A stretch of 64,000 bases of DNA from Candidatus Hinthialibacter antarcticus (lineage in GTDB: Bacteria; Hinthialibacterota; Hinthialibacteria; Hinthialibacterales; Hinthialibacteraceae), in NCBI GenBank assembly GCA_030765645.1, contig JAVCCE010000045.1, forward strand, positions 1-64,000, given 5' to 3'. The position numbers were made by a program, and so were the translations under genes. Positions within the stretch are counted from its first letter, which is position 1; each line of letters opens with the position of its first letter. Shown piece after piece: positions 50,420 to 54,271 of the stretch. Below the pieces are notes generated by a model. It was not told where the DNA came from. It was given only the letters and a program-made list of their open reading frames with translations, and ran no database searches.

Positions 50420-52366
50420 TTATTTATCTACGGTAAATTCCGCGTCAACAACATCGTCTTTATTGACGGACGAACTTTCAGAAGCGCTTTCTTCGTCCGG
50501 CGTTTCGGCGTCAGGCTCTGCGCCCGTCGCTCCAGCGCCCGCCGCGCCTGCGGCTTCTTGCTGTTTGGCGACTTCTTCATAAATCTTCTGGCCTAAGGTT
50601 TGGGCCGTTTGCTCAAGTGCTTCTTTCTTTTGCTTGACATCGTCAATCGAGCCTGACTCCAAAGCGGTTTTCAATTCTTGGATGCCGTCTTCGATTTTGG
50701 CCTTGTCGGCGTCTTCGATTTTGTCGCCGTATTCTTTCAGCGATTTTTCTGTCGAATAAACCAGGTTGTCGGCTTCGTTGCGCACGGTGGCTTCTTCTTT
50801 TTTCTTTTGATCTTCGTCCGCGTGCAGTTCCGCGTCTTTCACCATCTTTTCAATTTCATCTTCCGACAAGCCGCTGGATTGCTCAATGCGAATTTTCTGC
50901 TCTTTGCCGGTGCCTAAATCTTTGGCGGAGACATGCAGAATGCCGTTGGCGTCGATGTCGAACGCGACCTCAATTTGAGGCAGCCCGCGCGGGGCGGGGG
51001 GAAGCCCAACCAGATCGAAGCGTCCGATGCTTTTGTTTTGCGAAGCGATTTCACGTTCGCCCTGCAAGACCTGGATCGACACGGCGGGCTGATTGTCAGA
51101 CGCCGTTGAAAACACCTGGCTCTTACGGCATGGGATCGTTGTGTTGCGCTCAATCAAACGAGTGAACACGTCGCCCAAGGTTTCGATGCCGAGCGAGAGC
51201 GGCGTCACGTCAAGCAGCAGGACGTCTTTGACTTCTTTGTTCAACACGCCGCCCTGAATGGCCGCGCCGACGGCGACGACTTCATCCGGGTTCACGCCTC
51301 GGTTCGGTTCGCGTTCAAACAACTGTTTAACGATCTTTTGAACATACGGGATGCGCGTCGAGCCGCCGACGAGAATCACTTCGTCAATTTCAGACGCTGA
51401 CAAGCCCGCGTCTTTGATGGCCTTTTTGCATGGCTCGATGGTGCGGTCGATCAATGGCCCCGCGATTTGCTCAAACTTGGAGCGCGACAATTTCATCTGC
51501 AAGTGTTTCGGGCCGGTGGCGTCGGCGGTGATGAATGGAATGTCGATGGAGGTTTCCATCGAACTCGACAATTCACACTTGGCCTTTTCTGCGGCGTCTT
51601 TCAAGCGTTGCAGCGCCATCGGGTCCTTGCGGACGTCGATGCCGGATTCTTTTTGGAAGTTATCGGCAATATGGTCGATGAGGACATGGTCAATATCGTC
51701 GCCGCCCAAGTGGGTATCGCCGTTGGTCGACTTCACTTCAAATACGCCGTCGCCCAGTTCGAGGATGGAGACATCGAACGTGCCGCCGCCGAAATCATAC
51801 ACGGCGATCTTTTGGTCGGTCTTTTTGTCCATACCGTATGCGAGCGCCGCTGCGGTCGGTTCGTTAATGATGCGCAATACTTCGAGACCGGCGATTTTGC
51901 CTGCGTCCTTGGTGGACTGGCGCTGGCTGTCGTCAAAATAGGCCGGGACGGTGATGACGGCTTGGGTGACTTCATGGCCCAGGTAGTCTTCCGCTGTTTG
52001 TTTCATCTTCTGCAAGACGCGGGCGGAAATTTCTTCGGGCTTATAAGTCTTGCCGTCAATTTCAAATGCGGCGGAGCCGTCGGAGGCTCTAGCGATTTTA
52101 TAGGGGATGCGCTCTTTTTCGGCGCCGAGTTCTTCAAACTTGCGCCCGATAAAACGCTTCGACGAAAACACCGTTCGCGTTGGATTCGTAATCGCTTGGC
52201 GCTTGGCGACCTGGCCGACCAGGCGTTCACCGCTGTCGGTGAATGCGACGACTGAAGGCGTTGTACGACCACCTTCCGCGTTTGTAATGACGGCTGGCTC
52301 GCCGCCTTCGATCACGGCGACAACGGAGTTCGTTGTTCCTAAATCAATTCCGATGACCTTTCCCAT
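50420..52366 (-). CDS. dnaK: Chaperone DnaK (Hsp70)
   Basis: The 648-residue protein has the ATPase signatures GIDLGTTNS (5-13), [12 protein letters not shown] and [13 protein letters not shown]. The substrate domain begins after [13 protein letters not shown], and an acidic C-terminal lid ends in VDAEFTVDK. It folds and protects proteins with GrpE and a DnaJ; no dnaJ is nearby. ATG 52366 has AAGGAG eight bases upstream; the longer frame to 52465 is rejected because it overlaps grpE. It lies 19 bases after grpE. Confidence 0.98.
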
Positions 52367-52385
52367 GACGTTTGCTCCTTTATCT

Positions 52386-53036
52386 CTAAGATTCGTTAGT
52401 TTCTGTCTGATCGGATGGTGTGCTGGCAGCCTGTGCGACTTGTACTTTTGCGGCGCGTAAAACACGCTCTTTTAACAGATAACCGGGCATAAACTCACTG
52501 ACGATTTGCCCGGGTTGGTGTTCTTCGCTTTCGATTAGCATCATGGCTTCGTGAACGCTAGGGTCGAACATCTCGCCCTGGGTGTTGATGCGCTCAAGGC
52601 CATATTCCGAAAGAATCGTCATCATCTGCTGCTGGATCATCTTCACGCCGTCGCGAAATGACTCGTGGTTGTCCTCATTCGAGTCGGTGTTGAGTGCGCG
52701 GTCGAGGTTGTCGATCACGTCCAACAGGCGTCCCATGAATTCTTGCAGCAAAAATTCACGCATTTCAGAGCGTTCGCGAATCGTACGTTTGCGGAAATTA
52801 TCAAATTCCGCCTGTAATCGCTGCAAATCGTGAAGGTATTCATCACGCTGCTTGCAGACCGCCTCAAACTCAGTCTCAGCGCTAGGTTCGGCCTGGCCTT
52901 CAGCGGTTTCAGCCTCTTCGAGCGTTTCGTCTACGGAGTCGTTTTCTTCAACCACTGAAGAAGCGGCATCCTGGTTGCTGACGCTTTCATCTGTTGGATT
53001 TTCAAACTCTTGTGTTGTGTTTTCTCTTTCGTTCAT
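52386..53036 (-). CDS. grpE: Nucleotide exchange factor GrpE
   Basis: The 216-residue protein has an acidic, disordered first 65 residues, a long coiled coil ([25 protein letters not shown]) and the beta domain motif [10 protein letters not shown] ... [23 protein letters not shown]. It dimerises and releases ADP from DnaK. The start [11 protein letters not shown] at 53036 is chosen; an upstream extension to 53108 is not GrpE-like. No CIRCE or other heat-shock operator was found in front. Confidence 0.96.
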
Positions 53037-53146
53037 GCTTGCTATTAATCTCAGTGTTTTTAGTTTTTTTTGACTTAACGCTATTCCTAAATGCAATAAA
53101 CATTCCATGAGAGTTGTTGGTTTATAAGTTATTATAAATAAGCAGT

Positions 53147-53320
53147 TTATTTTGGTTTGCGCGAGGCGCTTTCATCGAAGAAATCGTTGTTAAAGCGGGC
53201 CAGAATGGCGCGATTCACCAAGGTATCTAGAGCGGGTGTGCCAAAATAGCTAGTCATTGAAATTTCTTCGGCACGACGGGCATGGAATATATTAAAGATG
53301 GTAGCGGGTTTATATTCCAT
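53147..53320 (-). CDS. Possible small protein of 57 residues
   Basis: An ATG-started frame of 57 codons gives a balanced, protein-like composition beginning MEYKPATIFNIFHARRAEEI and ending FDESASRKPK. It lies between grpE and the DnaA-box cluster. No ribosome site is visible and no family is recognised. Third codon positions look GC-rich compared with the AT-rich surroundings, which favours real coding, but the evidence is limited. Confidence 0.4.
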   Translation of the reverse strand: MEYKPATIFNIFHARRAEEISMTSYFGTPALDTLVNRAILARFNNDFFDESASRKPK

Positions 53321-53341
53321 GATGTCGATAGAAATATATAC

Positions 53342-53514
53342 TTATCCACAGAACATTACATCTAGAAGAATATTACATGGATAATGATTGATTCGATCTA
53401 TTTTATCTGTTTGTTTTTATAGAACTTGCAGAAATATTAGCAATATGTAAGGCTGTGGAGAACTTGTGAGTCATTTGCCCCATTTTGTGGATTTCTTGTA
53501 AAAACTGTGGAAAA
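53342..53514. other. DnaA-box cluster, candidate oriC or DnaA-regulated site
   Basis: Four sites match or approach the DnaA box TTATNCACA: TTATCCACA at 53342 (exact) and, on the opposite strand, TTCTCCACA at 53454-53462, AAATCCACA at 53486-53494 and TTTTCCACA at 53506-53514. A partial fifth site (TTATCCATG) is at 53376-53384 on the minus strand. The intervening DNA is strongly AT-rich, as an unwinding element would be. It contains no gene and lies between purH and grpE. Confidence 0.5.
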
Positions 53515-53525
53515 CCAGTGGATGG

Positions 53526-54125
53526 TTATAGTTTAACGCTTTGTAGATAACCTGTGATGGCGCGGTCATATTGATGGGTGTGCATGAATGCCTTTGCCGC
53601 GAGTCTCTTGCGCGTCTCAAGGGTGACGCCGTTGTGTTTTCTGATCTCTTCAACGACTACGTTGTAGTCATCCGGCTCGGTGATGACGGTGACAGCCTTA
53701 AAATTTTTCGCTGCGGCGCGAATCATGGTCGGGCCGCCGATGTCGATATTTTCCAGCGCTTCGTCCAGGGTCACGCCGGGTTTGGCGATGGTTTGCTGAA
53801 ATGGATATAAGTTGACTACGACCAGGTCAATCGGCTTGACGTCAAACTCGCCTGCTTCTTCGACCTGTTTGGGATCATTTCGTTTGAATAAAATGCCGCC
53901 GTGAATCATGGGGTGCAGGGTTTTCACCCGCCCGCCTAACATTTCCGGTGAGCCGGTGTAGTCGCTGACTTCCTGATATTCGATGCCGGATTCATGCAGC
54001 GCGCGGCCTGTTCCGCCTGTCGAGAGGATGTGGGTTCCATGCGCTTTGAGAGCGCGACCTAAATCAACAACGCCGCTTTTTTCGTATACGCTCAGAATCG
54101 CTTGTTGTATCGGAACTACATCCAT
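53526..54125 (-). CDS. purH: Stand-alone IMP cyclohydrolase (PurH N-terminal domain only)
   Basis: The 199-residue protein matches the MGS-like N-terminal domain of PurH: ILSTGGTGRALHESGIEYQEVSDYTGSPEMLGGRVKTLHP (read in parts), VVVNLYPFQQTI, NIDIGGPTMIRAAAKN and KAFMHTHQYDRAI. It closes FAICAR to IMP in the last purine step. It stops right after that domain; the AICAR transformylase half (about 300 residues) is missing and no remnant follows. ATG 54125 with GGGAG ten bases upstream is the start. The formyltransferase must be encoded elsewhere. Confidence 0.88.
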   Translation of the reverse strand: MDVVPIQQAILSVYEKSGVVDLGRALKAHGTHILSTGGTGRALHESGIEYQEVSDYTGSPEMLGGRVKTLHPMIHGGILFKRNDPKQVEEAGEFDVKPIDLVVVNLYPFQQTIAKPGVTLDEALENIDIGGPTMIRAAAKNFKAVTVITEPDDYNVVVEEIRKHNGVTLETRKRLAAKAFMHTHQYDRAITGYLQSVKL

Positions 54126-54271
54126 GACCCACGCTCCCAAAGTATTTACTCGATTACTATACGGCTGAAATCTTTGGCTGGAAAGCCTCAAAAATACGAT
54201 TAGAACGTTTTTATGAGATGGGGGTTGCCTCTTACTGCAGCGGCTAAGAGTGATGATGAAAAGCGGTATGT

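Follow-up and report, generated by a model that had tools for sequence, protein, structure and literature searches.

The gap between purH and grpE in Candidatus Hinthialibacter antarcticus contains a real, non-random group of DnaA boxes. The group is read here, with a probability of about 0.55, as a secondary DnaA-box cluster that lies outside oriC in the probable promoter or leader region of the grpE-dnaK operon and that may regulate the operon, titrate DnaA, or both. To judge from base composition and from the relatives compared, replication of the chromosome is likely to start outside this cluster. Taken alone, the cluster is most likely one more DnaA-box cluster of the ordinary kind in a chromosome. 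More useful than the cluster is a specific oriC prediction, the gap between spoVG-murI and an ECF sigma factor gene, in which boxes are present in six genera of the family.

The genome under study (G000) is a draft of 5.15 Mb in 78 contigs. The window, i.e., the whole stretch of 64,000 nucleotides that was analyzed, is located on the 107-kb contig C45. The comparison set consisted of six family genomes (G000–G005), of which G004 represents the sister genus of G000. Boxes were modeled on the E. coli word TTATCCACA, which may differ from the preference of the G000 DnaA. This word is the expected DnaA target in G000 because the DnaA protein is complete, with a C-terminal DNA-binding domain (Bac_DnaA_C, E 6e-31) in which the DHTTV signature is visible.

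Boxes and genes of the purH-grpE gap

The boxes and the surrounding genes are as follows (window coordinates).

50420–52366, minus strand: dnaK (Pfam HSP70), with a presumed start at an internal ATG
52386–53036, minus strand: grpE (start 53036; Pfam GrpE, E 6e-52), the first clear gene downstream of the boxes
about 53147–53320, minus strand: open frame of 57 codons, a doubtful gene with no Pfam match
53342–53350, plus strand: DnaA box, exact sequence match to TTATCCACA
53351–53453: AT-rich stretch, 27% GC, separating the exact box from the tandem boxes
53454–53462, minus strand: DnaA-like box TTCTCCACA, one mismatch
53486–53494, minus strand: DnaA-like box AAATCCACA, two mismatches, full TCCACA core
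53506–53514, minus strand: DnaA-like box TTTTCCACA, one mismatch
53526–54125, minus strand: purH (stop 53526–53528), 199 aa comprising just the IMP cyclohydrolase part (Pfam matches to MGS and to positions 1–59 of AICARFT_IMPCHas)
53542–53550, minus strand: DnaA-like box TTATCTACA, one mismatch, within the 3' end of purH

The preliminary description had reported an exact box and three boxes with one or two mismatches in AT-rich DNA, and these are present at 53342–53514. The words CTGTGGAGAACTTGTG and TTATCCACAGA, which it had likened to words at many bacterial origins, were also found in the sequence. The GC content of 53323–53560 is 33%, as compared with about 52% nearby. The minus-strand boxes form a co-oriented series that reads toward purH and in the grpE direction, and the exact box at 53342 faces the opposite way across 103 bases at 27% GC. 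The box at 53542–53550 may be incidental since the same bases serve as purH codons. A minus-strand sigma-70 promoter scan of the region upstream of grpE recognized none, and the position of the promoter is therefore assumed. No heat-shock CIRCE element was seen by eye upstream of grpE, and an Rfam scan of 52300–54200 gave zero matches at E <= 1.

The grouping of the boxes exceeds chance. Four boxes with at most one mismatch occur in 209 bases of 53323–53560, vs. a mean of 0.13 in dinucleotide shuffles of this segment, and at least four such boxes were obtained in 0 of 5,000 shuffles. The whole genome contains 1,074 sites with at most one mismatch to TTATCCACA, a density from which 0.014 clusters of at least four such sites within 209 bases are expected per genome; this estimate disregards the enrichment of box words in AT-rich gaps, and the local shuffle accounts for AT-richness. 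A genome-wide search for the pattern TCCACA-N4..34-TCCACA-N4..34-TCCACA gave a single match, at the window cluster, and the reversed control gave none. Single exact boxes are unremarkable in G000, with 25 copies genome-wide vs. 21 of the reversed control word. Boxes clustered beyond chance in AT-rich intergenic DNA, as expected of an oriC, are thus found at this site.

GC skew, conservation and origin candidates

The preliminary description had taken the cluster as a candidate replication origin and had named GC skew as a check. Run on contig C45 in 5-kb windows over 107 kb, the check gave positive skew in 21 of 22 windows, on both sides of 53 kb, with no sign change at the cluster, i.e., without the negative-to-positive switch expected of an oriC. 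The orthologous purH-grpE site of G004 has negative skew on both sides and likewise no switch. GC skew carries information in G000. Sampled pieces of one contig usually have the same sign, with C11, C1, and C7 mostly negative and C72, C76, and C73 positive; C15, the contig with dnaA, is negative in nearly all 5-kb windows. With an origin at 53 kb a switch would be expected at that point, and none was seen; the origin reading is unsupported on this ground. Skew and box clusters were read over ~1.8 Mb of the 5.15 Mb (about 35% of the assembly), and within this portion a sign switch was not located to any one place.

Conservation of the cluster is narrow. Boxes were scored in relatives by mismatches to TTATCCACA, without a scoring matrix. 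In G004 the purH-grpE order is kept, and the gap holds a looser, degenerate group consisting of TCATCCACC, TACTCCACA, and TTATCCACA; the gaps of G000 and G004 align only weakly. The order is also kept in G002, where the gap is without boxes. In G001, G003, and G005, purH and grpE are separate and no comparable intergenic box cluster was seen beside grpE. The sequence upstream of grpE is apparently coding in G001 and G005, and apparent boxes at this place in G001 were rejected as located in a coding frame. A box group at the purH-grpE place is thus common to G000 and only one of its five family relatives, and a DNA search with the whole gap in 20 relatives returned a 26-base match in a distant genome as the sole match. 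A position and box array conserved among relatives, as expected of an oriC, were not found for the window cluster.

The search for dnaA and for other DnaA-box clusters, also suggested in the preliminary description, placed dnaA at C15:126583–127956 and revealed two box regions that recur in all six family genomes, namely the gap upstream of dnaA and the spoVG-murI/ECF gap. The features of these regions are as follows.

G000, C15, 127957–128785: box array upstream of an isolated dnaA; boxes in 6/6 family genomes
G000, C14, 2892–3768: AT-rich spoVG-murI/ECF gap of roughly 0.9 kb with DnaA boxes
G000, C14, 1983–2891 and G004, C33, 8794–9690: murI
G000, C14, 3769–4356; G004, C33, 7521–8081; and G003, C23, 42975–43532: ECF sigma gene
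G003, C23, 41826–42092: spoVG

The spoVG-murI/ECF gap came to light when the class was searched for pairs of boxes separated by two bases, a phased-pair pattern that was picked after the dnaA-upstream arrays had been seen and that was one of several patterns tried. The matches were at C14:3213 in G000, at C33:8366 and 8515 in G004, and at C23:42366, 42423, and 42538 in G003. All of these map to a single orthologous site, flanked by spoVG-murI on one side and by the same ECF sigma factor gene on the other. A murI synteny search yielded 11 loci of about 2–4 kb each, whose sequence was read for boxes; it did not find murI in G003, yet the gap boxes are present there. At least one exact TTATCCACA occurs in the gap in all five genomes for which the gap sequence was read. 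A block resembling CCTGTGGATAA-N2-TGTGA is present in the gap of G001, G002, G005, and G000 (in G000 the first C is not strict), the corresponding block of G004 is TGTGGATAA-N2-TGTGCATA, and the gap of G002 contains six boxes with at most one mismatch. The box arrangement at murI was not seen in other families of the class. By this comparative argument, C14:2892–3768 is regarded as the best candidate for oriC in G000. Third-position skew on the coding strands of murI and the sigma gene was dropped as a proxy at C14, the sites being too few and too variable between genomes.

Upstream of dnaA, boxes lie 10–12 bases apart in several of the six family genomes. No sign switch of the skew is seen at dnaA in G000 or G004; the skew of G002 and G003 is ambiguous there, and the short contig of G005 shows a change of the opposite sense. 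Despite the box array in 6/6 genomes, this region was demoted to second candidate since the skew is without a clear switch. In this lineage the origin is apparently not marked by dnaA. Two exact boxes 154 bases apart at C7:56185 and 56339 were set aside as coding, as they lie inside a glycosyltransferase-like gene. A phased pair, TTATCAACA-N2-TTATACACA, is also present at G000 C59:9731–9911; the gene immediately downstream encodes a long product that looks secreted, with dockerin-like repeats and a TPT-rich linker.

Interpretation of the cluster

The reading of the group as a secondary DnaA-box cluster draws on the box density, the only TCCACA triple of the genome, the position directly upstream of grpE-dnaK, the box group in G004, the lack of a skew switch, the complete DnaA of G000, and the B. 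subtilis precedents given below. Against it stand the single exact box, the narrow conservation, the weak alignment of the G000 and G004 gaps, and a promoter position that is assumed. Cooperative binding of DnaA to the exact box and to the three weaker boxes that share one orientation is proposed. Binding over the promoter region could then tie transcription of grpE-dnaK to the level or state of DnaA; alternatively, the boxes may simply keep DnaA away from the origin. Two bolder readings, direct control of grpE-dnaK by DnaA through a dedicated box array and accessory initiation here in addition to the main origin, appear unlikely. If it is true that DnaA controls grpE-dnaK, replication initiation would be joined to chaperone supply and protein-folding stress.

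The main rival, a possible though less probable reading, is that the boxes are non-functional or serve another protein, the group of TCCACA words in this AT-rich gap having arisen by chance or being in decay. In its favor are the degeneracy of three boxes, the overlap of one box with purH codons, and weak conservation, limited to one sister genus. The expectation of 0.014 clusters per genome argues against chance, even if that figure underrates how common such words are in AT-rich gaps, and boxes are also grouped in this gap in the sister genus. The proposal that the window site is the chromosomal replication origin, in which the tandem boxes at 53454–53514 would load DnaA onto the AT-rich stretch at 53351–53453, which would then melt, is not supported and is considered quite improbable. 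By the TCCACA-triple test no other co-oriented box group in the genome is as dense, and a stretch at 27% GC adjoins the boxes. A box-spacer-trio pattern is also readable, consisting of TTCTCCACA, a 7-base spacer, and six NTN triplets under a permissive rule with an assumed strand convention. The published rule (PMC8287927) consists of a DnaA box, a spacer of at most 16 bases, and at least three DnaA-trios, and was applied here without the published program; the permissive pattern is also present upstream of dnaA. In addition, skew on C45 is without a switch near 53 kb, the orthologous G004 site lies inside uniformly negative skew, and the array is shared with one of five relatives, whereas the two other box regions are conserved family-wide. 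The site resembles an oriC with a basal unwinding system (PMC8287927) in its DnaA boxes beside an AT-rich stretch, and a trio pattern can be read under a permissive rule; it differs from one in lacking a skew switch and conservation, while the two other regions fit the comparison better.

The preliminary description had also allowed for a DnaA-regulated or datA-like site. As an alternative to the origin this was the better reading. A dedicated DnaA-control locus like E. coli datA or DARS, at which IHF or Fis would help to change the nucleotide state of DnaA, is the least probable of the readings considered. The presence of several boxes in non-coding DNA away from the probable origin speaks for it; narrow conservation is not what a central control element would lead one to expect, and the definition of datA and DARS in E. 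coli is a functional one. In one report (PMC5295017), datA is described as a region of about 1 kb with high-affinity boxes that needs IHF. Like datA, the window cluster has about five DnaA boxes and probably lies outside oriC; it does not match the ~1 kb size of datA.

The closest likeness to the secondary cluster proposed here is with Bacillus subtilis. DnaA-box clusters (DBCs) outside oriC have been reported in this organism, and their combined loss leads to early initiation (PMC5295017). DnaA of B. subtilis has also been reported to act as a transcription factor (PMC4447404). The DBCs and DnaA-bound promoters described in these sources resemble the window cluster in having several TTATCCACA-like boxes in gene-free DNA, off the probable origin and by a promoter region. 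They differ in that the window cluster has fewer strong boxes and in that grpE-dnaK is not among the targets named in the parts of these reports available to us.

Frames flanking the boxes

The 57-codon frame at 53147–53320 is not called a gene here because it has no Pfam match and because the frame is seemingly not kept in G004, as judged by eye. A word, TTTTGGCACA, followed by GCCAT ~40 bases on, recurs by eye upstream of grpE in G000 and G004 and more loosely in G002. This stretch, in the 53147–53320 region, recurs though the reading frame does not and is possibly a conserved non-coding element. On the other side of the boxes, the best match to the short purH is likewise a short frame (201–255 aa) in each of the other genomes of the order, and a fused purH frame of about 525 aa is present in five genomes from other families of the class.
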